This document shows positions 40,738-58,012 of a stretch of DNA of 64,000 nt, piece by piece. The stretch spans positions 1 to 64,000 of the forward strand of contig NZ_JAGQCY010000009.1 of assembly GCF_024346455.1 (NCBI RefSeq), read 5' to 3'. This DNA comes from Cyanobium sp. Aljojuca 7A6 (lineage in GTDB: Bacteria > Cyanobacteriota > Cyanobacteriia > PCC-6307 > Cyanobiaceae). Under the pieces are notes generated by a model. It was given only the letters and a program-made list of their open reading frames with translations. It did no database searches and was not told where the DNA came from. The translations under genes and the position numbers were made by a program. Each line of letters opens with the position of its first letter. The stretch's first letter is position 1.

Positions 40738-41163
40738 ATGGGTCTGGAGATCACGGCATCATCGCTTGGATCCCTTCAACACCATCCCGGCGTTCTCTAC
40801 AGCTACAAGAACGACGCCGTACCGCCAACCTGCTCAAGGAGCTTCTGGTTGCTGCACAAGAGCAAAAAAGTCTGGTTCAGGTTGGACGAGAAGCTACGGG
40901 GCCTGGCCATGGAGGCAGGCTTCTTCTACAGGGGCCGGAGAATTCTCTACCGGGGCGATTTGATGAAATTCCCCAGGCAGCAGAGACTCTCACTGGAAGC
41001 CAACAGCATCCTCTGGGGCCAGAATCTGGACAATGGATGGGGACGGGGACCGGAGGGGACCAACTACTACCTCCACCTCTGGACCCGTTGGTCGGTCTTC
41101 CAACCTGCCCGTTGCCATCCAGAGTTTTTCAGCATGACCCGCCGGCCGATTCATCGGCCGTGA
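40738..41163 (+). CDS. Hypothetical protein of unknown function
   Basis: 141 aa from the ATG at 40738, or 154 aa from 40699. It was chosen over two overlapping frames because its codons mostly end in G or C, like the neighbouring genes, whereas the alternative frames do not. Contains HHPGVLYSYKND, SFWLLHKSKKVWFRLDEKL and TNYYLHLWTRWSVFQP, rich in aromatic and basic residues; no TM segment and no known domain recognised. It ends 35 bp inside the convergent RsbW-like gene. Real coding status is uncertain. Confidence 0.4.
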   Translation: MGLEITASSLGSLQHHPGVLYSYKNDAVPPTCSRSFWLLHKSKKVWFRLDEKLRGLAMEAGFFYRGRRILYRGDLMKFPRQQRLSLEANSILWGQNLDNGWGRGPEGTNYYLHLWTRWSVFQPARCHPEFFSMTRRPIHRP

Positions 41164-41629
41164 GCGGATGGCTCAGGGAGAGGTCATTGGTTCCGTCATC
41201 GCGTCGGCCATGGCTGATCGTCCATCCATACTCCTTCTGAAGCTTCAGAAACATCACCAGTCCCCAATGGGCCTCTCGGGCCAGGGGATCTTGGCCACTG
41301 GCTGTGATCTCCGCTTCCACCCTGGCCAGGGCGGCATGGAAGTCGAAGGGTTCACCGTGATCGATGATCTGAAGGCGGAACAGACGGCTGGAGACGTGCA
41401 GCGAAAGCTGCACCGGTGGCGGCGCCACCAGGTGGCCATGGGCATGCCGAACGGCATTGGTGAAACCTTCCACAAGCCCCAGCTGGGCCTGCATCCAGAG
41501 ATCCGTTGGTACGCCGAAGTGCCTTTGCCGCTCAAACCAGGAGAGTACGGTCTGCAGTTCATCAAGATCGCTGTTGACGGCCAGAACCCTGCCCGGCAGG
41601 CCTGAGTCCGCCGACGCGGTGGAGGTCAT
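41129..41629 (-). CDS. RsbW/SpoIIAB-like serine kinase (HATPase_c_2 anti-sigma-type)
   Basis: 166 aa. A compact GHKL ATPase: N-box LVEGFTNAVRHAH, G1 box IIDHGEPFD, and a divergent G2 box (REAHWGLVMFLK in place of GxGL). There is no HisKA or sensor domain, so it fits the partner-switching kinases that phosphorylate a Ser in STAS proteins. Its ATG overlaps the stop of the STAS/sugar-transferase gene by 4 bp, so the kinase and its likely substrate are made from one message. No sigma factor gene is nearby. It is the last gene of the EPS operon. Confidence 0.85.
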   Translation of the reverse strand: MTSTASADSGLPGRVLAVNSDLDELQTVLSWFERQRHFGVPTDLWMQAQLGLVEGFTNAVRHAHGHLVAPPPVQLSLHVSSRLFRLQIIDHGEPFDFHAALARVEAEITASGQDPLAREAHWGLVMFLKLQKEYGWTISHGRRDDGTNDLSLSHPLTADESAGGSC

Positions 41630-42627
41630 GCCGCCCCCGAATCCTTGCTGAGAAGCACAAGGAAGGTTCTGACAATCAGCTTGAGATCGTAGCCAAGACT
41701 CCAGTTCTGTTGGTAGCGGAGGTCGAGTCGGATCACATCTTCAAAGTCACGGATCGACGACCGGCCACTCACCTGCCATTCGCCACTCAGCCCGGGGCGG
41801 ACATCAAAGCGCTGCCAACTGGGAATGGCGTAGCGACTGACTTCATCGGGTGTGGCTGGCCGCGTTCCAATCAGACTCATGTCGCCGATCAGCACATTCC
41901 AGAACTGGGGCAGCTCATCAAGACTGGTTTTGCGCAGGAAGCGACCCACCCTGGTGATCCTGGGGTCGTTGTCGTTTTTGAAGAAGGCTCCCTGGGCCTG
42001 GTTGACCACACTGCCTTTGAGCTTCTCCGCATTGCTCACCATCGAGCGAAACTTCCAGATGCGGAAGTGACGACCCATCCAGCCGCAGCGAACCTGGCTG
42101 AACAGAATCGGCCCCGGGCTGTCCAGCCGGATGGCCAGCGCCATGGGCAGGAACAGCAACGCCGTGACCCCGAGTCCGACCAGCGCCCCACAGATGTCCA
42201 GGAACCGCTTGACTCCGGACCGTACGGAAGGATGGGTCAGGGGGGGGCGTTGATCCTCGCTGCGCGAGAGCTGGGGCAGCAGGCCCTCGGAATGGGCCGC
42301 CACAGGCAACAGCTTCTCCAGTCCCGTCATCTGCAACGCCAGGAACACCTGCCGTTGCAAACTCCAGGCGCTGAGAGGAACGCCGTGCTCCTTGGCGGCC
42401 TTGATGGCGCCGACCAGGGCACCGATGCCGCTGCTGTCGATGATCGCGGTCCGGCCGAAATCCAGGATCACTTCCCGTAGTCCTTCCGCGTCGCCCAGCC
42501 AACGGGCGAAACCTTCACGGAAGGCCACCGCTTCGCGGACGGTGAGCCGAGGTGGCAGCTGAAGGATCAGGAGGCCGTTCTGTACGGTCCTGACGACAGC
42601 AGCGTTGGGGGATTGGGGAGCTGTCAT
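41626..42627 (-). CDS. STAS-domain fusion to undecaprenyl-phosphate sugar transferase (EPS initiation)
   Basis: 333 aa from the ATG at 42627. The N-terminal half (about 8-115) is a STAS domain, with the phosphorylatable serine motif [13 protein letters not shown] (D64, S65, S66). The C-terminal half is a bacterial sugar transferase (WcaJ/RfbP type): [17 protein letters not shown] membrane anchor, [17 protein letters not shown], the catalytic [13 protein letters not shown] and [11 protein letters not shown]. It would load the first sugar phosphate onto undecaprenyl phosphate at the plasma membrane. It has no extra TM domain. Such a fusion suggests control of the enzyme by STAS phosphorylation; the kinase gene overlaps downstream. 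Confidence 0.92.
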
Positions 42628-43103
42628 GCCGGAGAAAAATGGCGCTGAAGACTGCGGCACAGGGACTGGGCGGAGCTGTCGGTCACATCACTGATCGAGG
42701 TCTTGAAAGGAGCTTGGAGAAAGCGAACCAGATCACCCGGACTCCAGGCAATCGGTACACCCATCTCCGTCAGGGCCAGGGCGAGTTCGACCTGGTGGTC
42801 GTCGGCGTGCTCCTGATAACGAACGCTGCGTGGCACAAGAATGAAAGGCTGCTGCATTTCATCAAGCAACAGCACCGTACCCTCGCCGCAATGGGCAATC
42901 ACGACCCGCGCCTTCTGTACCAGCGCCCGAAAGGATTCTTCCTTCACCAAGCGGTAGACGGTGGTGCCACTGGGAAGAAACGTACAAGTGCCGTATTGAA
43001 CAACAATATCCTCATCAATGAGCTCCCGTTGGATCAAGAGCTCAACCCACTGCATCAACCGGTTGAAGGGGAACTGCTCCGTGCCGACGCTGACAAGAAT
43101 CAT
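42624..43103 (-). CDS. PssE-like glycosyltransferase subunit (Alg13 / GT28 C-lobe)
   Basis: 159 aa. It starts MILVSVGTEQFPFNRLMQWV, the PssE/EpsF/Alg13 opening, and has VVIAHCGEGTVLLLDEMQQPFILVPR, a donor-nucleotide binding region. It pairs with the preceding gene product (Alg14/PssD-like) to form one two-piece GT-B enzyme adding the second sugar on the lipid carrier. It overlaps both neighbours by 4 bp. Confidence 0.88.
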   Translation of the reverse strand: MILVSVGTEQFPFNRLMQWVELLIQRELIDEDIVVQYGTCTFLPSGTTVYRLVKEESFRALVQKARVVIAHCGEGTVLLLDEMQQPFILVPRSVRYQEHADDHQVELALALTEMGVPIAWSPGDLVRFLQAPFKTSISDVTDSSAQSLCRSLQRHFSPA

Positions 43104-43555
43104 GATCTCACCTTGCCCTGGACAAGTTCGGCCCGCGGATAGCGACGCTGCAGCTGGGGCCAGTGGACGTACAAAATATCAAGATAAGGATGGACGAGTC
43201 GTGCCGAAAGACTGAGCGTCTGAATGCGGGTCACGGACTCGATGAACACGGTCTTGCATCCAAACAGTTTACCGAGCAGAAGAAAGGGAACGGCAACACC
43301 GGCGCCGGTGGAAAGGATCACGTCCGGCCGCTCGCTGCGGATCACCTGCAGCGCCAGCCCCAGGTTGCGCAGCAGATTCGGCAGGTTGCGGTTGGTGGGG
43401 CTGTGGGCCCAGAGGACCCGCTCCTGGGCCAGGGCCGTTTCCGTTGTGGCGGTTCGAAACGTGACCCAGAGATGGGGATGGCGCTGCCAGAAATCGCCCA
43501 GCTGCTGCAGTGCCTTGAAATGTCCCCCTGAAGAACAGACCAGCAGGATTTTCAT
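43100..43555 (-). CDS. PssD-like glycosyltransferase subunit (Alg14 family)
   Basis: 151 aa from the ATG at 43555; the longer frame upstream runs into the preceding GT2 gene. The motif MKILLVCSSGGHFKALQQL is the Alg14/PssD N-terminus, with VILSTGAGVAVPFLLLGKLFGCKTVFIESVTRI as the membrane-associated conserved core. In exopolysaccharide clusters PssD and PssE act together. It overlaps pssE-like and the upstream GT2 gene by 4 bp each. Confidence 0.88.
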   Translation of the reverse strand: MKILLVCSSGGHFKALQQLGDFWQRHPHLWVTFRTATTETALAQERVLWAHSPTNRNLPNLLRNLGLALQVIRSERPDVILSTGAGVAVPFLLLGKLFGCKTVFIESVTRIQTLSLSARLVHPYLDILYVHWPQLQRRYPRAELVQGKVRS

Positions 43556-44583
43556 GGATTGCGTTCCCCGCGCATGCGCCGTTGCTGGCTGGCTCCGGTG
43601 GAGCGCAGCATCCGGCCCTCCAACCAGCGATAGGGACCTTCCGGCAGCACCCGCAGCAGATAGGCCGCCAGCAGGGTGATCAGGGTGCGCCGGGGTTCCT
43701 CCAGCAGCACCCTCCAATCGGTGGCCAAGGATTGGTTCAGCAGTCGCACGGCGAGGGCACCATCCCGCTGGCGGGTGGCCCGGCGGGCCAGATAGCGCAA
43801 CTGATAGGCGCGGGCCCTGGAGCCCCATTGGGCGATGAACTCCGGGTGGCTGGCTTCGGTCTTGAGCAGAACGCGCTCCCAGGAGGCGTATTGCTTCATC
43901 AGGTTGGCCGAGAGTCCGCCGTCACTGATGCGGTAGAGCGTCAGCGCCTCTGGGATGCCCTCGATCCGCCACTGGGTCTGGAGCACAATCCGCAGCCAGC
44001 ACTCGATGTCTTCGGACTGACGGAAGCTGTCGTCAAAGAAGAAGTCTTCCACCTCGCCATAGAGATTCGCCTCAAAGCGAATGGCGGCAAACACATCCCG
44101 CCGAATGACAACAGCCGAACCATTCCCGATCGGATTGCGGCAGAAGACAATCTCCGGGGTGATGTCCTGCAGCCTCGGCATCTGGTAGATCCCGATTGGC
44201 CTGGAGCTCTCATCGATGAACTCGGAGCGGGAAAAGCTGACCCCAACCTCGGGCCGCGCTTGCAGATGGGCCACATGGTGCTCCACCTTGGTGGGCAGCC
44301 ACAGGTCATCACTGTCCAGAAATCCCAGAAAATCCCCTTGGGCCTGCCGGATGCCTGTGTTCCTGGCCCCGGCCAGGCCCCGGTTCTGCTGATGCAGCAC
44401 ACGAACGCGTGGATCCTCGTACCCCTGGCAGATCGCCACACCATCGTCGGTGGAGCCATCGTTCACCACCAGGATCTCCAGGTTGGGGTAAGTCTGGGCG
44501 AGCACAGATTCCAGGCTTTCCCTCACCGTGGCAGCCGAGTTGTACAGCGGCATCACCACCGACACCAGGGGACATTGGCTCAT
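43552..44583 (-). CDS. Family 2 glycosyltransferase
   Basis: 343 aa from the ATG at 44583. A GT-A domain: VSVVMPLYNSAATVRESLES, LVVNDGSTDDGVA and the metal DSDD in FLGFLDSDDLWLPTK; a C-terminal helical region follows (about 240-343). The next gene upstream encodes a close relative with the same tail (YLARRATRQ and EEPRRTLITLL), which points to tandem duplication. It adds a sugar to the EPS repeat; donor and acceptor unknown. The ATGA overlap with the pssD-like gene supports one operon. Confidence 0.88.
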   Translation of the reverse strand: MSQCPLVSVVMPLYNSAATVRESLESVLAQTYPNLEILVVNDGSTDDGVAICQGYEDPRVRVLHQQNRGLAGARNTGIRQAQGDFLGFLDSDDLWLPTKVEHHVAHLQARPEVGVSFSRSEFIDESSRPIGIYQMPRLQDITPEIVFCRNPIGNGSAVVIRRDVFAAIRFEANLYGEVEDFFFDDSFRQSEDIECWLRIVLQTQWRIEGIPEALTLYRISDGGLSANLMKQYASWERVLLKTEASHPEFIAQWGSRARAYQLRYLARRATRQRDGALAVRLLNQSLATDWRVLLEEPRRTLITLLAAYLLRVLPEGPYRWLEGRMLRSTGASQQRRMRGERNP

Positions 44584-44593
44584 GGGAGTGGGC

Positions 44594-45574
44594 TCACGGG
44601 CGGAAGGGGGCCAGCAGCTGGCGCGCAAAGACGGCGAGGGCTGTGAACACGGTACGGCGCGGCTGCCGCAGCAGGATCCGCCAATCGGAGCGCAAGGCCC
44701 GCAGCATGAAGTCGGTGCCGATGGCGGGCGCTCCCCCCAGACGCAGGGAGCGCCGGGCCAGGTAGCGCAGGTGGATGGCCTGGGCCGTGGCGAAGTGCTT
44801 TGCCACCAGCTCCGGCGCATAACGACGGGCTTCCTGGATTAGCCGTAGCCAGCCTCGCTCCATGCGCTGCAGGCTCGAGGACAGTCCCCCGGCCGAGGTG
44901 CGGTAGTAGGTGAGCACCTGGGGCAACCCGGCGATAGGCCAGCGGCCATCGCAAGCCACCCGAAGCAGCCATTCCAGATCCTCCGAATAGCTCATGTCGG
45001 GGACGAATCCGCCCACGGAATCGAACACCTGCCGCCGCAGCACCCAGTTGGAGGTGGTGTTGGTGGGGTTCTCACAGAGAAAATCCACCGGCCGATGCGA
45101 TGGACGGGGCCGGGCCGCCAGCAGGCCGGTGGCTGTCCCCCCAGGGGACAGGAACGCGACGCGGGCGAAACTCACCCCCACATCAGGATGGTTGGCGTGG
45201 TAGTCCACATGCAGCCGCAGTTTGTCGGGATGCCAGAGATCATCGGCATCGAGGAAGGCGATCAGTGGCGCACTGCTGTGGGCCACGCCGCGATTGCGGG
45301 CCAGCGAGACCCCGGCGTTGGGCTGGCTGACCAGGTGCACCCGGGGATCATCCCCGAACAGGCGGGACACGATGCCGAGGCTGTCGTCGGTGGACCCGTC
45401 ATCCACGGCGATCAGTTCCCAGTTGCTGAGGCTCTGGTTTTGAACGGAGTGCAGGGTTTGCTCGATGTGCGCTGCCGCGTTGTAGATCGGAACCACCACG
45501 GAAATTGCCGTAGTTTCCAGCTCTGTGAGGTCTGGAACAACAGCAGCGGTCTCGTGATGATCAATGTCCGCCAT
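44594..45574 (-). CDS. Family 2 glycosyltransferase, paralogue of its neighbour
   Basis: 326 aa. GT-A core: ISVVVPIYNAAAHIEQTLHS, IAVDDGSTDDSLG and LIAFLDADDLWHPDK. The C-terminal tail matches the downstream GT2 (YLARRSLRLGG; RQPRRTVFTAL), so the two arose by duplication. Probably adds a different residue of the EPS repeat unit. It is 10 bp from the next gene. No signal peptide or membrane anchor was seen. Confidence 0.88.
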   Translation of the reverse strand: MADIDHHETAAVVPDLTELETTAISVVVPIYNAAAHIEQTLHSVQNQSLSNWELIAVDDGSTDDSLGIVSRLFGDDPRVHLVSQPNAGVSLARNRGVAHSSAPLIAFLDADDLWHPDKLRLHVDYHANHPDVGVSFARVAFLSPGGTATGLLAARPRPSHRPVDFLCENPTNTTSNWVLRRQVFDSVGGFVPDMSYSEDLEWLLRVACDGRWPIAGLPQVLTYYRTSAGGLSSSLQRMERGWLRLIQEARRYAPELVAKHFATAQAIHLRYLARRSLRLGGAPAIGTDFMLRALRSDWRILLRQPRRTVFTALAVFARQLLAPFRP

Positions 45575-45582
45575 CGGTTCAG

Positions 45583-46428
45583 TTACGAGGTATGGCTGGA
45601 GCGGTGACCACCGAGCAGCCGACGCAGGAAAGCCTTGAAACGCCCCATCAGGGTGATCCGCAGCATCCGCAGGCGCTTGGCGTAGTAATCGAACTGGTTG
45701 ATGGTTGGTGGCTGACCCTCCTGGAAATGGTGCAGCTGACGCGCAGGGATCAGCTTGGATGTCCAGTCGACCGAGTCGATATGGCGAAACTGTTCATGGC
45801 CGAAACGGGCCTGAAGCTTCTCCTTGATCTGGTCAGGCGTGCGGTAGGGGTAGTGGCGGTTGTAAAGACGCTGCGAGCAGGCTTTGGTGAGTCCGTTGGG
45901 CCACTGGGGGGCCAACGCTTCGTTCCAGGGTTGATGGGGCTGGTTGCGGAAGAAGCGGTACTCGCGCCAATTGGCGGAGTAGTAGCGGCGTCGTTCGGTG
46001 ATGGGTCGGTTGGTTTCAAGCTTCTCGGCCGCCCAGTTCTTGTAATCGGCATCTGTGTAGTAGAACTGAAGATTCCAGGCCGTCACGAAGTCAGCTTTTT
46101 CACGGTTGGCCTTGGCCAGCACATCCCTGGGGTCCCCTTCGAGGAACTCATCCCCATCCAGCCTGAGCCACCAATCCTGATCACCCAGTTCGTGGTTGTA
46201 TTTGTTGTAGACGACCGAGCGCATCCCATCGCGGAATGGCACCAGAAGTTGCTCTTCAATCACGATTGCTGGATACTGCCGAGCCAGGGTGTTCACGGTT
46301 TCCCAGGTGCCATCCGTACTGCCATTGTCAAGAACAAAGATTCGATCGCAGAACTTCAGCGCATGAACCAGACAATCCGCAATGACGTCGCCCTCATTCT
46401 TGATCAGGCAGATGGCGTAGATCTTCAC
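45583..46428 (-). CDS. Family 2 glycosyltransferase
   Basis: 281 aa. It begins MKIYAICLIKNEGDVIADCL, an NEG-type GT2 opening, with FVLDNGSTDGTWE, WWLRLDGDEFLEGD and RFFRN downstream. This subgroup differs from the two adjacent GT2 enzymes. It has aromatic-rich segments (FYYTDADYKNWA). Base composition falls from this gene onward in the locus. It is 8 bp upstream of the next GT2 gene. Confidence 0.85.
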   Translation of the reverse strand: MKIYAICLIKNEGDVIADCLVHALKFCDRIFVLDNGSTDGTWETVNTLARQYPAIVIEEQLLVPFRDGMRSVVYNKYNHELGDQDWWLRLDGDEFLEGDPRDVLAKANREKADFVTAWNLQFYYTDADYKNWAAEKLETNRPITERRRYYSANWREYRFFRNQPHQPWNEALAPQWPNGLTKACSQRLYNRHYPYRTPDQIKEKLQARFGHEQFRHIDSVDWTSKLIPARQLHHFQEGQPPTINQFDYYAKRLRMLRITLMGRFKAFLRRLLGGHRSSHTS

Positions 46429-46605
46429 GAGTGAATCAGGCGGGCGGACGTCAAGGCAGGCTCTTATGGCACCCTTGGCACCACGAACGTGACCCAGGCC
46501 TGCGGCGGTGGCAGCAGGGCTTGAAAGCTTCTATCACTTTAACTGTGCGTTGCCCGCGTCCTCAACGGTGCGATTGATGTCAAGCTTCAGGCATGAGAGA
46601 GTGTT

Positions 46606-47886
46606 TCACAGGCTTGCCGGCTGAGACAGCTGAATCCTTCTTAGCAATCGCTGCCCCATCAACAGGTAGATCGGCTGAAGCGTGAGATGGGCCGCTGCCA
46701 CGGCCACGGCCACGCCCAGGGATCCCCAGGTCGTGCCGATCAGAATGGCCACGGTGAGTGCCACCGTGAAGGCCAGGTTCCAGAGCAGATCCACCTGGGG
46801 CAAGCCCACGGCGCGGAACAGCATGGAGGAGGCGTTGGCGAAGGGGCGGGACAGGGCCGACAGGCAGATCAGCATCAGAATCGGCACCGCCCCCTCCGAC
46901 ACCCACTGTCGGCCAAAGACGATCGGTACATACAGAGGCGCAAGGCTGCACTGCAGCGCCACGACGGGCACGATCACCTTGGTGATGGTGAGCAGGTTCT
47001 TGTGGAAGCGCTCCTTGAGGACGGCGGGTTGGCTGCGGACGTCACAGAAGTCGGAGTACAGGGAGACCGACAGGGCATTGATCACGCTCAGACTCAGACC
47101 CAGTCCGGCGTTGAAGGCGAAGTAGTACACCCCAAGCGCTTTGACGCCAATGAAGCGACCGATCAGGAGATAGTCCACATTCTCCCGAAAGGTGTTGAGC
47201 AATTCCACCCCGAGGATGCGACTGCCGAACTGCAGCACGGACTTCCAGCGCTTGAGCGTGAACGACAGTGCGGGCCGCCAGGGTTCGAAGCGCAGCATCA
47301 TAGAAACCCAGACCGGAGCCACCAACAACTTGGGAAGCACGATCGCCCACATACCCATCCCCATCAGTGCAAAGATCCCCGTCAGCAGGTTTTCGGTGGC
47401 AACGGCAGTGAGGTTGGTCATGCTGTAGAACTTCAGCCGATTCTGCCGGCGCACCAGTGCCGACTGCACCATGGAGAGCGGGTAGATCAGATAGCTGAAA
47501 CTCACCACGATGATCGGCACGATCAGTGCGTTGTCGTTGTAGATCCTGGCAAAGAGAAACGAACCAATGATCTGGATAAGAAATAGGCTGAATCCGATCA
47601 GCCAGTTCAGACTCCATGCCGTCTGACAGATCTCCTGGACCTCATCCGCATCGGCCTGCACAATCTTGTCGCCGATGCCGTTGCGTGTGAAGACCTTGAC
47701 AAGCTCGCCGGACGTCAACACGATGGCCGCCAGGCCATAGTCCCTGGGGCTTAGCAGCCTGGCCAGAAGAACCGTGGCCAAGAGCCGCGAGACTCGAATC
47801 CCCACCTCACCCACACCCATCCAGCCGATGTTGCGGATGAATCGATCCTTCGGGATGAACTGTTTCAGGTTTCTGAGCAGGCCCAT
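46606..47886 (-). CDS. Polysaccharide flippase (Wzx-type, MOP superfamily)
   Basis: 426 aa from the ATG at 47886; a TTG immediately before it is also in frame. About 12 TM helices. The opening IGWMGVGEVGIRVSRLLATVLLARLLSPRDYGLAAIV is the PST/Wzx signature. It would move the undecaprenyl-linked EPS repeat across the plasma membrane for Wzy polymerisation. A 177-bp gap separates it from the downstream glycosyltransferase gene; I see no gene in that gap. Confidence 0.9.
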   Translation of the reverse strand: MGLLRNLKQFIPKDRFIRNIGWMGVGEVGIRVSRLLATVLLARLLSPRDYGLAAIVLTSGELVKVFTRNGIGDKIVQADADEVQEICQTAWSLNWLIGFSLFLIQIIGSFLFARIYNDNALIVPIIVVSFSYLIYPLSMVQSALVRRQNRLKFYSMTNLTAVATENLLTGIFALMGMGMWAIVLPKLLVAPVWVSMMLRFEPWRPALSFTLKRWKSVLQFGSRILGVELLNTFRENVDYLLIGRFIGVKALGVYYFAFNAGLGLSLSVINALSVSLYSDFCDVRSQPAVLKERFHKNLLTITKVIVPVVALQCSLAPLYVPIVFGRQWVSEGAVPILMLICLSALSRPFANASSMLFRAVGLPQVDLLWNLAFTVALTVAILIGTTWGSLGVAVAVAAAHLTLQPIYLLMGQRLLRRIQLSQPASL

Positions 47887-47988
47887 CAATGGCTAACCCC
47901 ACGCGTCCGAGCTGTCATTGGACAGCCTCCTGCCTCTGGATAGACCATCATGGCATCAAAGCTGATAACGGCTGGCAGAGCGGGTGAC

Positions 47989-49320
47989 TCACGATGCGGG
48001 CTGAGCTTCAGGCTGGAGCTGGCTTTTCTTCTCTTGTAGAGCCATTCCCATGATAAGCATTCCAGGCCAGAAGAGATAGACCAAGATCTCGAGATTCTCG
48101 CCAAATGTATACATAAATAGGAGAATGATGATTCCCAGCCCAGCCGAACCAAGTTGATAGCGGGGACTGGCAGCACGACGCAATAGATCAAGCGCCGTAA
48201 CCAACATGGGAACAGCCAGAGCGACGAAGCCGACAATCCCTTTGACAAAAAGGACTCCGGCCCAGGTGTGATGGGAGCCAATGGCCATGTACTCAACCAG
48301 ATGGGGCCCGCCCTCGACAACACCATGCCCCCAAATCGGAGCCTCTGTCTCCCAGCGATGGAACGCGATGCGCTTTAGCGCAAAGCGAACACGCGTAGAG
48401 CCAGCGCGAGCACCTTTAAATCCTTCCCAGTAGTCGTTTATAGCAGTCAGAATAGAAGTGGCAAAGATTCCACCAAGATAAGAAAGAAAGCCAAGTGAAA
48501 TCAGCATAGACGGCTTGCGGAGCCTGGAAACGATCGCCGTAACAGTTGGGATCAAGATGATGGCAAGCTGGGCAAGCCGCGACTTGCAGACAAAGCACAT
48601 GACGATGGATCCAATGATGCCAAGAGCCTTCCATTTCCGATCTTTTTCCAGCAGACATATCATGAAGTTGATATTGCCAACAAATCCAAGAGCAGGTCCC
48701 CATGGAGAGAACAGGCGCCAGCGAAGGTCACCAGTGCTACCGTCAATTTCGTAGAGAGGAACATCAAAGAATTCATTTCCTGGACCACCGACAGCTCTCA
48801 ATGGCGAGACGTAGAGCACTTCTGGCAGACCTAGATGCGGGCTTAGCAGAAGGAGCGGCATGATGAGGAGCGTATGAAAGCCCACGATGCAAATGGCACG
48901 TGTAGGGATGCTGCTGCGAATCGGCAGAGCTCCTGCCAATGGATAGAGCGCCAGGGCGGCCCAGCCTTTGGCCCAACCAATCGTGGACTTGATGATCGCT
49001 CCAGTCCCTAGGTTGAAGTTCACATGTCCTGCAATCAAGGCAACTTCCATGATGATCATGCCGATGATCCAAAGCCAGATCACGGGTGATATGGAAATTT
49101 CTTCATTGTCTTCTGGGTGATCCATTCGGGCCAGGATCTTGATCAGCAGGCAACCCAGGAGTAGCCAGCACAGAACAGAACCCACAACATAGAGCCCACC
49201 GACTAGCCAGATAGGGTAGGTGCAAACAATCGACCACCAGACCAAACGTTCTGGCCAATTTTTCGGCTGAAGATCATCCTCAGACTGGAAGGCTCTTGAA
49301 AGAAGCGTTTTAAGTCCCAA
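47989..49320 (-). CDS. O-antigen polymerase/ligase family membrane protein (Wzy-type)
   Basis: 443 aa from a TTG start supported by an AAGGGG Shine-Dalgarno-like run about 6 bases upstream. About 10-11 TM helices with a long periplasmic loop (about 185-330). The late HGVVEGGPHLVEYMAIGSHH and AGVLFVKGIVGFVALAVPML resemble the O-antigen ligase/polymerase family. It probably polymerises EPS repeat units in the periplasm. It is markedly AT-richer than genes outside the locus. Confidence 0.8.
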   Translation of the reverse strand: MGLKTLLSRAFQSEDDLQPKNWPERLVWWSIVCTYPIWLVGGLYVVGSVLCWLLLGCLLIKILARMDHPEDNEEISISPVIWLWIIGMIIMEVALIAGHVNFNLGTGAIIKSTIGWAKGWAALALYPLAGALPIRSSIPTRAICIVGFHTLLIMPLLLLSPHLGLPEVLYVSPLRAVGGPGNEFFDVPLYEIDGSTGDLRWRLFSPWGPALGFVGNINFMICLLEKDRKWKALGIIGSIVMCFVCKSRLAQLAIILIPTVTAIVSRLRKPSMLISLGFLSYLGGIFATSILTAINDYWEGFKGARAGSTRVRFALKRIAFHRWETEAPIWGHGVVEGGPHLVEYMAIGSHHTWAGVLFVKGIVGFVALAVPMLVTALDLLRRAASPRYQLGSAGLGIIILLFMYTFGENLEILVYLFWPGMLIMGMALQEKKSQLQPEAQPAS

Positions 49321-49333
49321 TGAACACCCCTTG

Positions 49334-50844
49334 TTATGTAGAAATCCAATTGGCGACCCGTTTGATCCAAGGCTTGCGGATCCATAGGATCCAAAAACCT
49401 ACAGTCGTCAGGATGGAACCAAATGCTGAGCCAGCAAGCACCAACGATCGCTTGGGTGACGTAGCTTTTTCTGGAAAGGATGGCTCCACAGCTATTTGAA
49501 TCAGCGGGAATGCTGCGAAAATGTTCGCCTGACCAAGATCCAATTTTGCCAATGTGGATGCAAAGACTGCTTCTGCTATCTGTTCATTCCGCTTAAGATT
49601 CTCCAAAGAAGACTGCTTCTGGGACATCAACCGGAGTCGCCCCTCCAAAGCGCTGATTTGTTGATCAAGCTTGCGAACCTGTGAGGCTGCACCTGAAGCA
49701 TCTGACTGGTAGTTCACCAAGTTCTGGAAAAGTGAATCGCGGCCCGAACTGCCACCAGTTAACGCCAGTTTTGTGAGAGTCTGGGCTGATGGAGCGCGAC
49801 CGAGCAACTCTTTGGCACGCTGATTCATTGCCTGTCTGGCAGCCACTTGGCGCTTGATTTCTTTGAGAATGCGAGGGTTATTGCGTCCAAACTTGGACAG
49901 TTGGACCTTGAGTATAGACGTGGCTTCGCTGTAGTCCTTCACATTCTGTTGGAAGATCTGATCAACCTGCAACTTGAACGCGTCTGTGGCCTCTGAAGGA
50001 GACAGACCCAGGCTACGACTCAACTTCTGCAATCGACTCTCAGCCTGCGATTGTAGAGCAGCAAGTTCGGCTCTTTGTTTGCGTAGCTGTTCAATATTTG
50101 CCGACAGGATTTCAACCTGTTCTGTAGAAGTGAGGCCAGACTGGCGCTTGTATGCGGAAACTTGCTTTTGAGCAGTCTCAAGCTTCTGCTGTGTTTCAAG
50201 CAGAATCTTCTGTGCTGGACCTTGCGTTGCTCGATCTCGCTGACACGCAGCTCATTAAGACGCTCTACAATGGCGTCATGCAACGCATAGGCACGCTTGC
50301 GTGCATCTACAGGAGATGGACCGGTGGCATCAATCTGCATCAGCGTCGTATTATCAATGTTCTTAATGCGAGGCTTGGCGAAATCCGCCTTAGGAATATT
50401 GGCAATCTTGGCAGCTCGTGCGATGACCTGCTCGCTAACGAAGATGTATTCATAGTTTGCACGAGGATCAAATGTAGCCAAGCCAAGGGACTCGTTTGAT
50501 GCCGTGGCTTGACCAATCTCAGGCAGGCTTAAATTCACAGCGTTAGCGCTTCCAGGTAGGATTAAAGCCCAAGAACTGGTATAGACAGGCTTGGCAAGTG
50601 CAAGATACAGAATACTGGTGCCCCATATCAAACCATTCGTACATGTGGACACGAATAGGTAGCGACTCCAGCGAAGCTTGTCGGTTCGACTCAGTTTTAT
50701 CCACCATCCCTTTGGATCGGGTGCCTTCAACCCAGGAATATTTCGAAACTGTTCGGCAAACAGTCGCGTCGCCTTGCCCAAGGGTTCTTGCATTGCCTGC
50801 ACCTTAGGCCTGAGTCGTCTGATGATCGGTGGAAAGTCTTTCAC
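49334..50844 (-). pseudogene. Polysaccharide chain-length determinant (Wzz/GNVR), frameshifted
   Basis: Two overlapping reading frames form one Wzz protein. The upstream frame (GTG at 50844) gives the N-terminus with a TM helix, then up to VSEIEQRKVQ. The frame then shifts near 50215-50220. Reading one base over restores AQKILLETQQKLETAQKQVS, EQVEILSANIEQLRKQRAEL and the downstream coiled-coil, C-terminal TM (VLAGSAFGSILTTVGFWILW) and end at 49334. Adding one base would give about 503 aa with two TM helices and no attached tyrosine kinase. It is either disabled or a sequencing error. A role in setting EPS chain length is inferred from family. Confidence 0.88.
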
Positions 50845-50850
50845 TCGTTT

Positions 50851-51894
50851 CTAGGGAATACTACGATCATAGATCAACACGGATGGATTGAGAAACTGAG
50901 TTAAAATGCTAAGGACAGCCTGGAAGTTGGTCACCTTAGAGTCATAACAGGCAACACCATCGTCTGCCATGAGATAGGGGTTGTTAGCATTGTCTGTAGA
51001 CGCGCGAAGAAGATCTTCAACTCCCCTTTCGTAGATAGCCGTCTTGCCCGAGGCCCTTTCTGTTCGCACCAGGATGGCACGGCGGCGTGCATTGGTGACC
51101 ATGGTTCCACCAGCACAGTTGGCCGAGATAACCGCATGGGATAGGCGAGATCCATAGGGAAAATTCCTGGCCTGAGTGCCAATGCCAGCAACAGAATTTC
51201 CAGCCGCAGGAACAGTAAGATTTGAAATGTTAATCTCAACTTCAGCGGGCGTAATCTGAGAAGGGCGAACGATGAGTGGATTAACGGTACCAGTGTCCGG
51301 AACAATGACTTGATCACCCGCAATGAGTGGGATGTCGTTAAAAGGTTCTCCCGTGAAAGCACCTGACATGTCAATCACTTGCCTTTGTGAACCCCGTTTC
51401 ACCTGTATCGCGGCGACATCGGCCGTGGGAGTAATGCCTCCTGCACGACGGAGTGCCGTTGTGAGCATACGATTGAGCGGGGCTTGCCCAGAAAGTTGAA
51501 CAGGAGTCTGGGTCTGCTCTACATCACTTAACTCGTTGATCAATAACCGCCCAGGCTGAAAAGCAGATCCAATGACAAAGACCGGGACAGGTGCCCATTG
51601 GATGACACTCAGACTGACCCTGAGAAAAGATGGCTGAAAAAAGCCTTGTTGCACCAGGGCTTGATAGACACGCTTCTGAAGCTGTTCTGGCTCAAGACCC
51701 ACAGCGTAAATTCCCTTGGAAAAGGGAATTTCAAGCTCTCCGTTCAGATTGATTTCAAAGATGCCACTGAATTCTTCCCCTTCCGGAATTGTTAACTTTA
51801 CCCGATCCCCTGGTGAGATCGGTAATGCCAAGGCCGATCCTGAAGTGCCAACAAAGCAAGCGAGTCCAAGAAGCCATGATTGAAGTTTCGACAT
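50851..51894 (-). CDS. Polysaccharide export outer-membrane protein (Wza-like, SLBB)
   Basis: 347 aa. N-terminal signal peptide (MSKLQSWLLGLACFVG, cleavage near ALALP), no lipobox cysteine seen. The Poly_export domain begins ISPGDRVKLTIPEGEEFSG, followed by SLBB-like repeats containing MLTTALRRAGGITPTADVAAIQVKRGSQ. It exports EPS through the outer membrane. It is the first gene of the minus-strand EPS operon, with an inverted repeat upstream. Confidence 0.9.
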   Translation of the reverse strand: MSKLQSWLLGLACFVGTSGSALALPISPGDRVKLTIPEGEEFSGIFEINLNGELEIPFSKGIYAVGLEPEQLQKRVYQALVQQGFFQPSFLRVSLSVIQWAPVPVFVIGSAFQPGRLLINELSDVEQTQTPVQLSGQAPLNRMLTTALRRAGGITPTADVAAIQVKRGSQRQVIDMSGAFTGEPFNDIPLIAGDQVIVPDTGTVNPLIVRPSQITPAEVEINISNLTVPAAGNSVAGIGTQARNFPYGSRLSHAVISANCAGGTMVTNARRRAILVRTERASGKTAIYERGVEDLLRASTDNANNPYLMADDGVACYDSKVTNFQAVLSILTQFLNPSVLIYDRSIP

Positions 51895-52505
51895 CTGTGT
51901 CGATCTGGGGGAGTTCCCTTTTGGCTTGTTGAGACAACGTTAGCGTATCCGTAGACTGCTAGCTACGGGCATTCACCCTGGGGGAGATTGGCGAGTGTTC
52001 ACTCAACCGCCCGCTGATTCCCGTCACCTGGAGGCAGTTCCGGTGCCACGTATACCTGTATTGCCTCTGGCTTGCCTATCCGCCTTCGGTTGTTTCGGTG
52101 TATCGCTCTGTTCCTGATCTCCGAGACTAGTCCTGCCCCGGCGATCCGTGGGTGCCGGCGAATCTGGTGAGCAACCGCAAGGCTATTCAGAATGGCCGCT
52201 GCCGCCGCTGGTGATGTGCTCCATGCTTGGCGCAGCAGCCTGATCCCAGCTTGGCCGGAAAGTCGGGAGCCTCTGGCGTGCGACGGCAAGACACGGCGAG
52301 GTTCCCCTCTCGAGACCGAGGTTCGCAAGAACCGGTCGTTCGCCAGGCACCGGTACAGCCTGGGTCCTCGGCGCCGCCCTGGTCCACAAGGCCTTCTCAA
52401 GTGGTGCCGCCATGTCCCCCACCGGACAGCTGCCCACCACCTCAGACGTCGTTCTTCCTGGTATGGGCCTGCTGGGGCATTGGAGCTGGGGAGAAGGCCA
52501 CTCTT
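51895..52505. other. Intergenic region between wza and the GT8 gene
   Basis: About 610 bp with no convincing intact gene. The part next to wza is AT-rich and holds an inverted repeat. The part next to the GT8 gene is GC-richer and carries a possible remnant of an ISAs1-type transposase; both strands have open frames there but none resembles a known intact protein. It must contain the divergent promoters for the EPS operon and the GT8 gene. Confidence 0.6.
51949..51968. promoter_or_regulatory. Inverted repeat upstream of wza
   Basis: CCGTAG and CTACGG arms around an 8-base spacer, 55 bp before the wza start. It is positioned like an operator or a promoter-proximal hairpin for the EPS operon. 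The sequence after it on the minus strand (GATACGCTAACG) includes an AT-rich segment, but no clear -10/-35 pair could be fixed. Confidence 0.35.
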
Positions 52506-52510
52506 ATGAG
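52192..52510 (+). mobile_element. Possible degenerate ISAs1-type transposase fragment
   Basis: A plus-strand frame reads W..SLIPAWPESREPLACDGKTRRGS, resembling the transposase segment DGKT-RGS found in ISAs1-family (H-repeat) enzymes. Downstream similarity fades and would need frameshifts; no terminal repeats, target duplication or intact transposase are visible. The overlap with the end of the GT8 promoter region is arbitrary. This is a weak call based on one motif and its context at a composition boundary. Confidence 0.3.
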
Positions 52511-53453
52511 TCTGAATCACAGTGCTGAGCTAAATTTGTATGGCAAGGTCCCTCAAGGTATGATGGTTAACATTGTAATTGTGGCAACGGCTAACTATCT
52601 TTGGGGGGCGGCGGTCACCGTTTGTTCCGCTTTGGAGGCCTGTAGTACAACCCTCAATGTTTATGCCATTTGCGTCGATCTGACCCAGGACGATAAGCAG
52701 CAACTGTCTAACTCCTGGCAAGCTTCCAACATCGGCTCAATCAGCTTTATTGATTTTGATCTTGAGCGGGTCAATAACTTTCGCACCACTCTGCTTGTCA
52801 AGAGCAAATCCCCCTATGCTCGCTTCTTTATTCCCGAGTATCTGGCGAATGTATCTCGCTGCATCTACTTAGATACGGACTTAATCGTTTGCTCGGACCT
52901 GGCTGAGCTGCAGCTTCTGGATCTGTATGGGAAATCCAGCGCTTGTGTCATTGATGGCGGCATAGACACTCCACAGCAGCAGCAGCGTCTTCGTGAAAAG
53001 CTGAAACTTGAAAACCCTCATCAGTACTTTAACTCAGGGGTGATTGTGATGGATCTGGACGCATGGAGGCATCATCAGATCCAGTCGAAAGCTCTAGTGG
53101 TTGCACAGGACAACTATGATCTGCTTGATCAGATGGATCAAGACGCCCTGAATATCGTCTTGGCAGGTGATTGGTTAGTCCTCGATCAGAAATGGAATAC
53201 GTCGAAAGGCAAGGCTGATGCTGACTTTTCAGACGGCATTATCCATTTCCTCGGAAAAGTCAAGCCCTGGCACGCAGATTATGCCGCAAACTTTCAAGAT
53301 CGATGGTTTGAGCTTCTGGATCGAACCGCCTTTGCTGGTCAGCGTCCGGTCAAACTATTTGGAGCAGGCGCTGCCTATCGTAGATTTGTCCGCTCTATTC
53401 CAACACTTGAGATGGTGAAGGGGAAGCTGCGACGACTCATGCGATCTGCTTGA
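52506..53453 (+). CDS. Family 8 glycosyltransferase
   Basis: 315 aa from the ATG at 52506, preceded by GGAGAAGG at a good distance; an ATG pair at 52560/52563 is the alternative. GT8 motifs: MVNIVIVATANYLWGAAVTV at the donor site, metal DxD in RCIYLDTDLIVC, QYFNSGVIVMDLDAWR, and the C-terminal IHFLGKVKPWHADY (HxxGxxKPW). It transfers glucose or galactose onto surface glycans, likely as part of EPS assembly. AT-richer than its neighbours. It reads divergently from the wza operon. Confidence 0.92.
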   Translation: MSLNHSAELNLYGKVPQGMMVNIVIVATANYLWGAAVTVCSALEACSTTLNVYAICVDLTQDDKQQLSNSWQASNIGSISFIDFDLERVNNFRTTLLVKSKSPYARFFIPEYLANVSRCIYLDTDLIVCSDLAELQLLDLYGKSSACVIDGGIDTPQQQQRLREKLKLENPHQYFNSGVIVMDLDAWRHHQIQSKALVVAQDNYDLLDQMDQDALNIVLAGDWLVLDQKWNTSKGKADADFSDGIIHFLGKVKPWHADYAANFQDRWFELLDRTAFAGQRPVKLFGAGAAYRRFVRSIPTLEMVKGKLRRLMRSA

Positions 53454-53751: not shown

Positions 53752-54813
53752 GTGCGCATTGGCCTGATCAACGCCTACAGCACCCTGAATCTGGGGGATG
53801 CAGCGATCTACAGTTCCTTTCGTAAGTTGCTGCCTGATGTGGAGCTGGTGGGCTGCGTTCAGGATGAACGGCCCGATGCCAGCCTTGGGGTCACTTTCCT
53901 GCCTGATCGCCCCACGAACTGCGATGCTTACGTGAGTGTGGGGGGTGACATCTTCAACAATTCGCGTGAATGGTTTGTCACCAAGGCGTTCCTCAAAAAC
54001 CTGGCCGAACTGAGGCACAGTCCGACCCGCACCATCCTGTTCGGCCAGTCGATTCCTCGCTCCTGCCACGGCCTCAGCTTTCTTCTCTTGCAGCGCTATT
54101 TCAAGCGCCTGGCGGCTGTCTGTGTACGGGATGCCGAAAGCCACCAGCGACTCTGCGCCGCAGGGGTGCCGGCCAGGTTGTCGTACGACATTGCCTTCGT
54201 GCTGGAGAGCTCCCCCCTGGCGGAGGCCACCGCGCGGCAATGCCTGGAGCAGCTAGAGATTGATCCGTCCCAGGCTGCCGTGCTGTCTGTGCGTGGTTTC
54301 GACAGCATGTATGGCCACGATAATGGGGCCTTCGTTTCCAGAATGGTCCAGCTCAGCGTTGAGCTCTCCGGGGCCGGACTCAGGCCCATCGTGTTGATCC
54401 AGTCGGGCGCCTATGGCTCTGACAATGATCTCGAAGTGGCCGCCGCCATCCAGGAACGCGCACCCGGAACCGCCATCCTAAACCCGTTTGTTGACCATCC
54501 GGCCGTGCCCAGTTGGCAGCTGGCCATGGCCCTGTTTGCCCTAGTCGATTACGTGATTGCAGTACGGTTTCACACAGCTGTTCTTTCGCTGGCAGCTGGA
54601 CGAGTTCCTTACCATCTCCACTATTCCAACAAGGGCAGGGACCTCTGCCGGCGACTTGAGCTGCCCGGCTGTGATCTGGCCAGCCTGGATCCTCCGTCGG
54701 CGCTGGCAGCGATTCTGGCCACCCGCGGGCGCCCATTCGATCATCAGCCTTTGCGTGAGCAGGTACGCCGCGATTTCCGGTGGTGCCTCGATCAACTACC
54801 CGATGTGATCTGA
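53752..54813 (+). CDS. Polysaccharide pyruvyl transferase family protein
   Basis: 353 aa from a GTG start. Family features: MRIGLINAYSTLNLGDAAIYSSF, a YVSVGGDIFNNS loop, a FGQSIPRSCHG segment, and the C-terminal VIAVRFHTAVLSLAAGRVPYHLHYSNKGRDL. CsaB/WcaK-type enzymes add ketal-pyruvate from phosphoenolpyruvate to sugar residues, giving negative charge to EPS. It sits just beyond the EPS export genes and 60 bp upstream of the H-NOX gene. Confidence 0.88.
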   Translation: MRIGLINAYSTLNLGDAAIYSSFRKLLPDVELVGCVQDERPDASLGVTFLPDRPTNCDAYVSVGGDIFNNSREWFVTKAFLKNLAELRHSPTRTILFGQSIPRSCHGLSFLLLQRYFKRLAAVCVRDAESHQRLCAAGVPARLSYDIAFVLESSPLAEATARQCLEQLEIDPSQAAVLSVRGFDSMYGHDNGAFVSRMVQLSVELSGAGLRPIVLIQSGAYGSDNDLEVAAAIQERAPGTAILNPFVDHPAVPSWQLAMALFALVDYVIAVRFHTAVLSLAAGRVPYHLHYSNKGRDLCRRLELPGCDLASLDPPSALAAILATRGRPFDHQPLREQVRRDFRWCLDQLPDVI

Positions 54814-54873: not shown

Positions 54874-55473
54874 ATGTACGGACTCGTCAACCGGGCCATC
54901 CAGCAGATGGTCACTACGCATCATGGTGAAGAGGCCTGGCAGCGCATTAAGGACAGGGCCGATCTCCAGGATATCGATTTCTTCTCCACGTACCAGGCCT
55001 ATCCCGACGACGTGACCCATCGGCTCGTGGCGGCGGCCACGGAGGAACTGGGCCTCACGGATGATCAGATCATGCAGGCTTTTGGCGAGTACTGGATCAC
55101 CTACACCGCCTCAGAAGGTTACGAGCAGCTTCTCGAGAGCACGGGAGAAACGCTGCCGGAATTCTTGGATCATCTCGACAATCTTCACGCCCGCGCCGCC
55201 GTGACTTTCCCTGATCTGCAACCGCCCTCGTTCCGCTGTGAGCACAGTGCCGACGCCTCCATGCAACTGGAGTACCGCTCCAAGCGTCGAGGCCTGGCGC
55301 CCATGGTGACGGGGCTGCTGCACGGCCTGGGGAAACGCTTTCATACCCCCCTGGAGGTCGACCAGATCGCTTTTCGCGACCGGGGCGATGCCACGGACCT
55401 GTTCCAGGTACGCCTTTGTCCCGATTCCGATTCTGTCGCTGCTCTGCCGGATGACGGCACGAAGAGCGAATGA
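54874..55473 (+). CDS. H-NOX (heme NO-binding) sensor protein
   Basis: 199 aa. Cytosolic heme sensor that binds NO. Starts [13 protein letters not shown], the family opening. The proximal heme ligand is H105 in [12 protein letters not shown], and the propionate-binding YxSxR motif is present as [13 protein letters not shown]. Distal-pocket residues cannot be assigned with certainty from sequence, so NO versus O2 preference is open. The next gene, 16 bp downstream, encodes a hybrid kinase with the HNOBA domain, the usual partner of H-NOX proteins. Confidence 0.95.
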
Positions 55474-55489
55474 AGGTTTGTCGTTTCTG

Positions 55490-58012
55490 ATGGTGCCTCC
55501 CGTGCCTCTACCTGACCACCTTCTCGATCCCCTCTTTCCCTTTCATCTCGTCGTTGATCGTGAGCTGCGGATCCGTTCTGCCGGCTCTGTCCTGCGTCGC
55601 ATCGTTCCTGTCCCGGATCTGGTGGGGCAGCCCCTCGACGACCACTTCCAGCTGTTGCGCCCGGATGTGCCCTTGGGCTTCACCAGTCTGCGTGACTGCT
55701 CGGATCGGCATGTGATCCTCAAGGCTGACTCGCTTCCATTGCAACTCAAGGGTCAGATCTGTTGCCTTGATGAGAAGGAAAAGTTGCTCTTTGTCGGTAC
55801 ACCCTGTTTACTGCAGCTGGAGGATCTCAAGTCCCTCGGCCTGAAGATCAATGACTTTCCCTTGCATGACTCTCTGGTTGACTTTCTTTTCCTCTTGCAA
55901 GCCAGGAATGTGGCACTCAGCGAAAGCCAGAAGCTCAACGATATTCTCACTGCGCAGCGGGGGGAGTTGCGGGAGTCGACCCAGCGCCTTTCCTCGCTCA
56001 ATGCGGAGCTGGAGGCGGCCAAGCAGGTCGCTGAAGCGGCCAATGCTGCCAAGGATACGTTTCTGGCCACCATGAGCCATGAGATCAGAACCCCGATGAA
56101 CGCCATCATCGGCATGGCTGGTCTGCTTCAGGACTCCAAGCTGGAGCCGATGGAGCGGGAGTATGTCGAGATCATCAACAGCAGCACCGATTCCCTGCTG
56201 ACGATCATCAATGACATTCTTGACTTCTCGAAGATTGAATCCGGTGCCATGCAGCTGGATGAACAGCGCTTCAATCTCCGCATCTGCATCGAAGAGGCCC
56301 TCGATCTGAGCATGTCCCGCCTATTGGGCAAGCAGGTGGAAATGATCCTGGACATCGAGCCCAGCCTGCCCACGGCCGTCATCGGCGATCTCACCCGCCT
56401 GCGCCAGATCCTCTGGAATCTCCTGAGCAATGCGGTCAAATTCACCTCCAGGGGTGAGATCGTCGTCATGGTCTCCGCGGAGCCTCAGGCCGTTGAGGCC
56501 GGCCAGCCGAGCCAGAGCCAGTTCACCTTTCAGATCCGGGACACCGGTATCGGCGTGTCCGATGCGCTGATTCCCCAGCTGTTCGAGCCCTTTCGCCAGG
56601 CCGATCCCTCCACGGCCCGTCGCTACGGCGGCACGGGTCTGGGTCTGGCGATCACCCGTCGCCTGTGTGAGTTGATGGGGGGAGCCATCAGCCTGGCCAG
56701 CCAGGAAGGCGAAGGCAGTGTCTTCACCTTCACCGTCCTGCTGCATCTTGATCCGGCCTCGCAGGCGAGCACCAGCCCGGAGCTCCTGGCGGTGCCAGCG
56801 GCGGCGCCCATCCTCCTGCTCATCGGCAATCCCACGCTCCGCGCTGTGCTCCAGAAGCAGCTTTGCTGGATGGGGCTGACGGTGATCGCCCCCGATCCCT
56901 GCCAGATCCCCACGCCGTTCGCCCACACCCAGATCGGCGACCTCGGGCCTGGGGCGGTGCTCATCGATGGGCGGCTGCTCTGCAGCGACGACGAGACATC
57001 AGCGCCGCCCTTTCTGCAGGACCCCATGATCCGGCTGCACCCCTGGATCATTTTGGCCGACCGCTGCAAGGTCTCCGCGCTGGGTTCCCTGGGCGAGAGG
57101 CCGCCAGTGATGCTCACCAAGCCTGTGCGACGCGAACAGCTCCGCCTGGCCCTGATGCAGCAATTGCAGTGTCCTGAGCAGCGGCGGCTGGCCGGGCCGC
57201 CAACACTGACGCGCGAATCTGTCCCTCGGGGCGGCCCCCATCGTCTCGCCGACCGGCTGCCGCTGCGGCTGCTCGTCGTGGATGACATCCCCGTGAACCG
57301 CCAGTTGGCGCTTCAGTTGCTGCAGCGGCTGGGCTACCGGGCCGAGGCCGTGGCCTCAGGCTCAGAGGCGCTCGCGGCCGTCCAGGAGACCCCATTCGAC
57401 GTGCTGTTCATGGACGTGCAGATGCCGGAGCTGGACGGGTACGCGACCACGCGGGCCATCCGGCAGCTGCCGGCTCCGTTCTTACAGCCCTGGATCATCG
57501 CCATGACGGCCCATGGCCGTCCGGAGGATCGCCAGGCCTGCCTCCAGGCCGGCATGGACGACTTTCTGGCCAAGCCGATCGTGCCTGCCCAGCTCACCTA
57601 CGCCCTGGAGCACTACCAGCCCCGCGACCAACCCGAGGCACCAGTGGGGGGAGGGGCCGACCCGATCGACGCTGCTGCCTGGGAGGAACTGGAGCAGGCC
57701 ATGGGAGACGGTGCTGAGGCCGTGCTCCAGGAGCTCATCGACCTCTATCTCGAGGACGCGATGCGTCTGGTGTCCGCGGTGGTGCTGGCCCACCAGTACC
57801 ACGATCCCCCCGCGATGATCGCCGCCGCCCATTCCCTGCGCTCCCCCAGTGCCAGCCTGGGGGCGCTGCGGTTGGCCGCGTTGTGCGGCCAGGTTGAGGA
57901 GTCCCTGCGCTCCGCGCCCGAGGCGTGGCCCCAGGTCAGAATCGATCAGTTGCTCGTCGAGGCTGGACGGGTGACCGAAGCTCTGCGGCTGCGTCGACCC
58001 CTGGAAGCCTGA
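55490..58012 (+). CDS. H-NOX-associated hybrid histidine kinase (HNOBA-HisKA-HATPase-REC-HPt)
   Basis: 840 aa from the ATG at 55490. N-terminal HNOBA domain (about 1-150): [56 protein letters not shown] coiled coil then leads to HisKA (H197 in [11 protein letters not shown]), HATPase_c (N-box [19 protein letters not shown]), a degenerate receiver (about 440-570), an intact receiver with D642 in [11 protein letters not shown], and a C-terminal HPt with H781 in [14 protein letters not shown]. It is cytosolic and probably reads H-NOX status, then passes phosphate to a separate receiver. The REC-PP2C gene starts 5 bp downstream and is the obvious target. Confidence 0.95.

Follow-up and report, generated by a model that had tools for sequence, protein, structure and literature searches.

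Partner-switch genes clustered with a STAS-fused initiating phosphoglycosyltransferase, often with an H-NOX sensor, in Cyanobacteria

In the window analyzed here, a 64,000-nucleotide stretch of the Cyanobium sp. Aljojuca 7A6 genome, the initiating phosphoglycosyltransferase (PGT) of an exopolysaccharide (EPS) locus carries an N-terminal STAS domain, and its gene is directly followed by that of an RsbW-like protein (Table 1). The remainder of the likely system lies outside 41129-42627, at 42624-43558 and 54874-59590; the latter module supplies the partner-switch parts that the fusion and the kinase-like gene lack by themselves. STAS-PGT fusions are known in outline and, judged by an open-frame proxy, are frequent among Cyanobacteria. 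An arrangement in which partner-switch genes, often with an H-NOX input, are wired to the initiating PGT appears to be undescribed in the open-licence literature searched; as a conserved gene cluster, it is well supported at the sequence level. This suggests direct control of slime production at the step that initiates it. The full reading from sensor to PGT, in which the cluster forms a partner switch acting on the initiating PGT and not on a sigma factor, is in our judgment somewhat more probable than its negation.

Table 1. Coordinates of the putative partner switch and of the adjoining EPS locus in the window.
Feature	Coordinates	Strand	Remarks
RsbW-like HATPase_c_2 protein	41129..41629	(-)	166 aa; start 41629, stop 41129; Pfam E 1.1e-13
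STAS-PGT fusion	41626..42627	(-)	333 aa; start 42627, stop 41626
Alg13/GT28-C-like half of predicted glycosyltransferase	42624..43103	(-)	4-bp overlap with STAS-PGT
Alg14-like half of the same predicted glycosyltransferase	43100..43558	(-)	4-bp overlap with Alg13-like gene
EPS locus upstream of the fusion	43552..53453	mixed	Glycosyltransferases, flippase, export
GT2-type genes	43552-44640, 44594-45574, 45583-46428		EPS locus
Wzx-like flippase	46606-47889		EPS locus
Membrane protein, guessed polymerase	47989-49320		No Pfam match; guess from position and appearance
Guessed chain-length protein, two frames	49334-50032, 50020-50844		No Pfam match; guess from position and appearance
Poly_export/SLBB protein	50851-51894		EPS locus
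GT8	52227-53453	(+)	
Polysaccharide pyruvyl transferase	53752..54813	(+)	E 2.4e-24
H-NOX heme sensor	54874..55473	(+)	HNOB Pfam E 1.6e-52
Hybrid histidine kinase, HNOBA-HisKA-HATPase-REC-Hpt	55388..58012	(+)	Start is the first start codon
REC-PP2C (SpoIIE) phosphatase, RsbU-like	57925..59190	(+)	Metal-site Asp motifs present; start is the first start codon
Free-standing STAS protein	59213..59590	(-)	Motif DFMDSSGFG; convergent with REC-PP2C

Pfam placed STAS at residues 14-112 of the fusion (E 1.4e-11) and Bac_transf at residues 140-326 (E 4.7e-64). The STAS motif is D64-S65-S66-G67, and a sequence-only reading of this DNA, which had described a complete STAS domain with DSSG in the N-terminal half of the PGT, was therefore correct on this point. 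Its Bac_transf score (215.7 bits; cut-off 27) classifies the protein as a monotopic PGT; its PGT half matches the solved WbaP (8t53, E 3.1e-37) and a PglC-type structure (8g1n, E 1.6e-25). An Asp-Glu dyad is catalytic in monotopic PGTs. In the fusion this dyad is D237-E238, which is invariant in alignment A1, and it is present in 61 of the 61 named fused loci read. The predicted activity is the transfer of a sugar-1-phosphate to polyprenol phosphate.

S65 directly follows the Asp, in what we take to be the position of SpoIIAA Ser58. It is invariant in the 21 aligned fusions, and all 40 kinase-linked fusions have the acceptor serine. Both in fold and in having this serine after Asp, the STAS half corresponds to the SpoIIAA/RsbV type. 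Its sequence match among solved structures is SpoIIAA, and its predicted model best matches SpoIIAA in a structure bound to SpoIIAB (1tid, E 1e-6), with RsbV from the RsbV/RsbW complex among the next-best matches. The STAS half alone was used for this (block pLDDT 65-85 over residues 11-110), the full-length model having a mean pLDDT of 56 with 21 sequences. The assignment of the STAS half to the SpoIIAA/RsbV kind, its acceptor serine being conserved, is thus supported.

The start of the kinase-like gene overlaps the stop of the fusion gene by 4 bp. The stand-alone, overlapping RsbW-like gene that the earlier reading had reported is thereby borne out, with the qualification that its lid is non-canonical. 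The predicted model of the protein (mean pLDDT 87) best matches SpoIIAB and RsbW, and E54/N58 of the N-box and D90 of the G1 box are kept. With these matches, the identification of the two genes is far beyond chance. Across 46 kinase-like loci, which include five second copies from the same genomes, the N-box Glu and Asn are kept in all 46 and the G1 Asp in 44; the latter is lost in L026 and L082, and in L026 the operon persists despite the loss. The ATP lid is HWG in the window protein and HWG or, in a few cases, QWG in its clade. Because this is not the glycine-rich GxG, the protein is called RsbW-like here and is not filed as a proven RsbW kinase. The lid is GRG in L047, L049, L059, L062 and L080, and takes other forms in L053, L071 and L082. 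In the same genome, the two RsbW-like paralogs that were read carry the glycine-rich lids GGLGL and SGRGL, and four weaker HATPase_c_2 matches lie in longer frames. One paralog (C1:265946) sits with its own STAS gene, which lacks the DSSG motif, and PP2C genes.

Four genes on the (-) strand, namely the Alg14-like, Alg13-like, STAS-PGT and RsbW-like genes, overlap stop-to-start by 4 bp each. A scan of 40500-45700 returned no promoter-like sites and six terminator-like sites, against 3.0 expected. Farther along the window, the H-NOX, histidine kinase and REC-PP2C genes all point the same way, and their frames overlap when each is called from its first start codon. The closest solved relative of the H-NOX protein, assigned as such from its sequence, is Alr2278 of Nostoc (E 7.2e-73). 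H-NOX proteins of the Alr2278 type bind NO. Among all STAS matches of the genome, the free-standing protein ranks first. The kinase-like (predicted kinase), STAS and PP2C genes occur together, as in a putative partner-switching system. Metal-site Asp motifs are kept, where covered, in the 20 PP2C phosphatases aligned (the split L136 is outside that alignment), and all free STAS proteins that were aligned or motif-matched have the acceptor serine. In one locus (L043:11539-12225), the free STAS is a tandem duplicate with FMDSAGFG in both halves. Two further hybrid histidine kinases are encoded near the free STAS gene of the window (60120-63739, (+)); these may be additional inputs.

Among the 299 genomes of the order, at least 23 contain a full-length match to the fusion among the matches listed; two of these are broken, G010 by frame and G059 by a stop. 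A further fusion fragment at a contig edge in G252 brings the number of fusion genomes to 24. The kinase-like gene lies immediately downstream on the same strand in all 23 order-level fusion loci, with 28-100% identity and, with starts chosen by script, a spacing of -4 to +14 bp. Neighborhoods of 23 of the 24 were fetched, the window serving as the 24th, and were scanned with profiles built in this analysis. REC-PP2C was found in 20 of 24 fusion genomes, as was free STAS, and one more (G204) has a PP2C without a detected REC. Neither PP2C nor free STAS was found within the stretches fetched for G063; that of G104 ended inside the PP2C, and G208 and G286 were contig-limited. REC-PP2C is split over two frames in L126 (G177) and L136 (G010). 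In L025/L046 (G010), L022 (G059) and L112, STAS-PGT is broken by a frame change or stop and the adjoining kinase-like frame is open.

H-NOX occurs in 15 of the 24 fusion genomes, each time on the fusion's contig and 4-14 kb away, the gene being broken or partial in G104, G134 and G059; it was not detected in the other nine. In a chosen, non-random set of 63 genomes (those with the fusion, plus others from their genera and from some further genera), this compares with 3 of 39 genomes without the fusion, and the Fisher p of 4.8e-6 is nominal, given the relatedness of the genomes and the reassignment of G252 to the fusion group after its fragment was seen. Without that move, H-NOX is found in 14 of 23 versus 4 of 40 genomes. 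Another histidine kinase, assigned by Pfam, precedes REC-PP2C in five fusion loci without H-NOX (G038, G161, G064, G173, G273), consistent with a fixed switch whose sensor can be exchanged. H-NOX was rejected as a general marker of the module. Outside the family, 40 of 41 H-NOX places were sampled (G331 was left out, and PP2C-only matches weaker than 1e-30 were excluded); the module was present at one and was missing at 39 from the stretch fetched, about 10 kb on each side and less on short contigs. The sole positive, L186, is judged to belong to the same genome as L036.

The same gene set recurs in another order at six Nostocales loci (L036, L037, L038, L040, L042, L043), with the fusion, kinase-like, free STAS and PP2C genes within about 4.5 kb in 6/6 and H-NOX in 5/6; the locus without H-NOX is on a 10-kb contig. 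A PGT tree of 84 rows was built with 11 of the 23 order-level fusions, leaving out five duplicate genomes, L074 and L112. In this tree, the window family and the six Nostocales loci form one clade of 20 rows (support 97/81), all kinase-linked, and 18 unfused PGTs form another (support 100/99).

From a scan of named genomes, the best 80 of at least 582 confirmed stretches were taken; these 80 loci are cyanobacterial, and 62 of them are fused. Among these best 80, a kinase-like gene adjoins 23 of the 62 fusion loci (counting L046, although its PGT is in two frames) and is absent within 700 bp at 39, the contig of L063 ending 80 bp downstream. Five loci (L035, L039, L044, L045, L046) are judged to duplicate genomes of the order-level set, and the 40-fusion alignment excludes them. 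Nostoc sp. FACHB-280 possesses two fusions, one linked to a kinase-like gene (L043) and one not (L061). Eight kinase-linked loci that fall outside the clade, and also L112, showed no PP2C in their 10-kb flanks, several of them on short contigs. The acceptor serine is kept in 60 of 61 named fusion loci read, the exception being L097 (Gly); because kinase-unlinked fusions also keep it, its conservation alone does not show phosphorylation. The earlier reading had stated that its proposal would fail if the fusion occurred widely without a linked kinase and with the serine not conserved: the first was observed and the second was not. A class-level search with the STAS half matched 110 of 242 cyanobacterial genomes (E <=3.5e-24, frame >=285 aa), where frame length stands in for fusion and a PGT half is presumed. 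Co-divergence of the kinase-like protein and the STAS half in a mirror-tree analysis was dropped as evidence. Their partial correlation given the PGT was 0.54 over 40 loci; on the 32 loci with the Alg13-like gene it was 0.27 versus 0.43 for that control gene, and since the control co-diverges more, the co-divergence is no evidence.

In the mechanism we propose, a sensor histidine kinase, here the H-NOX and HNOBA hybrid kinase pair, would phosphorylate the REC domain of the PP2C phosphatase. With this pair as the sensor, the signal is probably nitric oxide or heme redox. The PP2C would dephosphorylate the free STAS protein and possibly also the STAS half of the PGT (S65), and the RsbW-like protein, made with the PGT, would leave that STAS half for the free protein. 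This shift may change the activity or assembly of the PGT, which would catalyze the first committed step of Wzx/Wzy-type exopolysaccharide. Domains, acceptor serines, most of the conserved catalytic motifs and the recurrent clustering are read directly from the DNA; the physical interactions, S65 phosphorylation, the sign of regulation and the ligand are what we infer from them. Counting for a switch are the 23/23 adjacency, the 97/81 clade, the recurrence of the module in two gene orders, the kept motifs and the SpoIIAA/SpoIIAB folds. Counting against it are the HWG lid, the 39/62 unlinked fusions, the kinase-linked loci without PP2C, G063 and the broken H-NOX genes; the 39/40 outside H-NOX loci without the module count against the sensor-to-PGT reading. 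The claim of the earlier reading that partner switching acts on the first glycan-building enzyme therefore gains from the SpoIIAA/RsbV kind of STAS, the conserved serine and the adjoining kinase-like gene. The REC-PP2C, the free STAS and the frequent H-NOX/histidine kinase pair, which belong to the same cluster, were outside that claim.

The unusual lid admits a different kind of switch, based on binding only, in which an RsbW-like protein without efficient phosphotransfer acts as cofactor or inhibitor on the STAS half of the PGT, and any phosphorylation occurs on the free STAS, by this protein or by another kinase. The HWG or QWG lid of the window's clade, the presence in the genome of two further RsbW-like proteins whose lids are glycine-rich and the retained operon in L026, which lost its G1 Asp, agree with this. 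We nevertheless consider it unlikely: the N-box Glu and Asn stand in 46/46 loci and the G1 Asp in 44/46, and a PP2C and acceptor serines are hard to explain beside a dead kinase, although this is an argument and not a test. A similarly low probability is given to a passive role of the STAS half as a dimerization or docking module, the kinase, free STAS and PP2C regulating something else (e.g., a sigma factor) and being co-inherited with the EPS locus. The immediate adjacency in 23/23 loci, often with overlapping codons, argues against such a role, as do the closeness of the STAS half to SpoIIAA/RsbV among solved structures and the maintenance of the module in two lineages with different gene order. 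It would, however, account for the absence of an adjoining kinase at 39/62 named fusion loci and for a kinase/STAS-half co-divergence no stronger than that of the Alg13-like neighbor, and there is a precedent in MlaB-type STAS domains, which to our knowledge work without known phosphorylation.

The sensor can be questioned separately, because the H-NOX/histidine kinase pair might be a chance or transferable neighbor and not the input of the switch. In the fusion genomes, each of the 15 H-NOX genes is 4-14 kb away from the STAS-PGT gene, any H-NOX is found in only 3 of 39 comparison genomes, and in the window the H-NOX, histidine kinase and REC-PP2C frames (from the first start codon) run in one direction and overlap. 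These points make such a neighbor rather unlikely, even though the module is missing from the stretch fetched at 39 of 40 outside H-NOX loci and no H-NOX was detected in nine of the 24 fusion genomes.

By sequence and fold, the three component types are the same as in RsbU/RsbV/RsbW and SpoIIE/SpoIIAA/SpoIIAB of Bacillus. The output of these Bacillus systems is a sigma factor, whereas a PGT output is proposed here. Fusion of a STAS domain to the initiating enzyme, which the earlier reading had thought perhaps undescribed, is not new: the available part of a 2021 review (PMC8256260), citing Wang et al. 2007, describes All4160 of Anabaena PCC 7120 as a glycosyltransferase that carries a STAS domain at its N terminus, and the 110/242 proxy count shows such frames to be frequent. 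The heterocyst envelope polysaccharide depends on all4160, among other genes listed in the accessible text of PMC4390870. All4160 resembles the window fusion in having STAS N-terminal to the glycosyltransferase, a homology drawn from these descriptions; it differs from the window cluster in that the portions available of the two sources describe no partner-switch coupling.

Other systems resemble the cluster in part, as far as the available portions of their descriptions go. In Nostoc punctiforme, HmpUWV ties a cyanobacterial PP2C, STAS and RsbW-like kinase to polysaccharide and motility (PMC8256260, PMC6495340). Its STAS output, however, is a separate protein, the effector of which is called undefined (PMC6495340); in the window one STAS lies within the PGT. 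SypA/SypE of Vibrio fischeri likewise places a STAS protein and a serine kinase in a polysaccharide locus (PMC8256260, PMC10120452), but SypA is a separate STAS whose target is called unknown, and transcription is spoken of (PMC8256260). The contrast that the earlier reading drew with such separate-STAS systems holds for the fused domain but is incomplete, because the cluster carries a free STAS (59213-59590) too. SiaABCD of Pseudomonas aeruginosa, according to the partial account available, is a biofilm-controlling phosphorylation pathway whose switch protein activates an enzyme to which it binds; there the output is a diguanylate cyclase, and SiaC is a separate protein. EpsW-EpsZ of Myxococcus xanthus is similar in that a signaling domain controls an initiating monoPGT after translation, EpsW acting on EpsZ, as given in the text available of PMC12802240, but it involves a separate response regulator and a large monoPGT, and neither "STAS" nor "partner switch" occurs in PMC12802240. 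The same source, in its accessible part, cites the phosphorylation of CapM by CapB1.

Within the open-licence literature, searches found no description of a STAS domain tied to a phosphoglycosyl transferase or a cyanobacterial sugar transferase, and no related description either of partner-switching wiring onto exopolysaccharide in cyanobacteria via STAS or of H-NOX coupled to partner-switching. Nothing was found there for alr2278/alr2279, and nothing useful for cyanobacterial H-NOX with histidine kinase, nitric oxide and biofilm.

With STAS joined to the enzyme that commits the lipid carrier to exopolysaccharide, beside the switch genes, a direct target becomes testable. Such a candidate has value since, in the portions available, the HmpV effector is called undefined (PMC6495340) and the SypA target unknown (PMC8256260). 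If the switch reading is true, a phospho-switch would join the few known post-translational controls of monoPGTs (CapM and EpsZ, in the available text of PMC12802240), and a concrete output could be assigned to one or more groups of H-NOX sensors in cyanobacteria. A broader proposal, which we regard as speculative and rather improbable, is that initiating PGTs are the missing targets of STAS outputs (HmpV, perhaps SypA), and that in this clade NO, via H-NOX, gates the first step of EPS through a PP2C-driven partner switch, with neither a transcription factor nor cyclic di-GMP between. That the available text of PMC8256260 speaks of transcription for SypA argues against extending a PGT target to this protein.

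Some variation in gene structure was also observed. The gene in the chain-length position of the window (49334-50844, (-)) consists of two overlapping frames versus one 505-aa frame in seven close relatives, which is due either to a real frameshift or to a sequence error. In Nostoc sp. T09 (L086:9393-10612), an unfused PGT is immediately preceded by a free STAS gene, perhaps a split form of the fusion; this is the sole such case among the 18 unfused loci of the best 80 listed. In a Pseudanabaena-type locus (L083:8894-11164), GT28-C (Alg13-like), Alg14, STAS and Bac_transf occupy one 756-aa frame; similar loci have frames of 709-756 aa, in which the window's neighboring genes are made as one protein.
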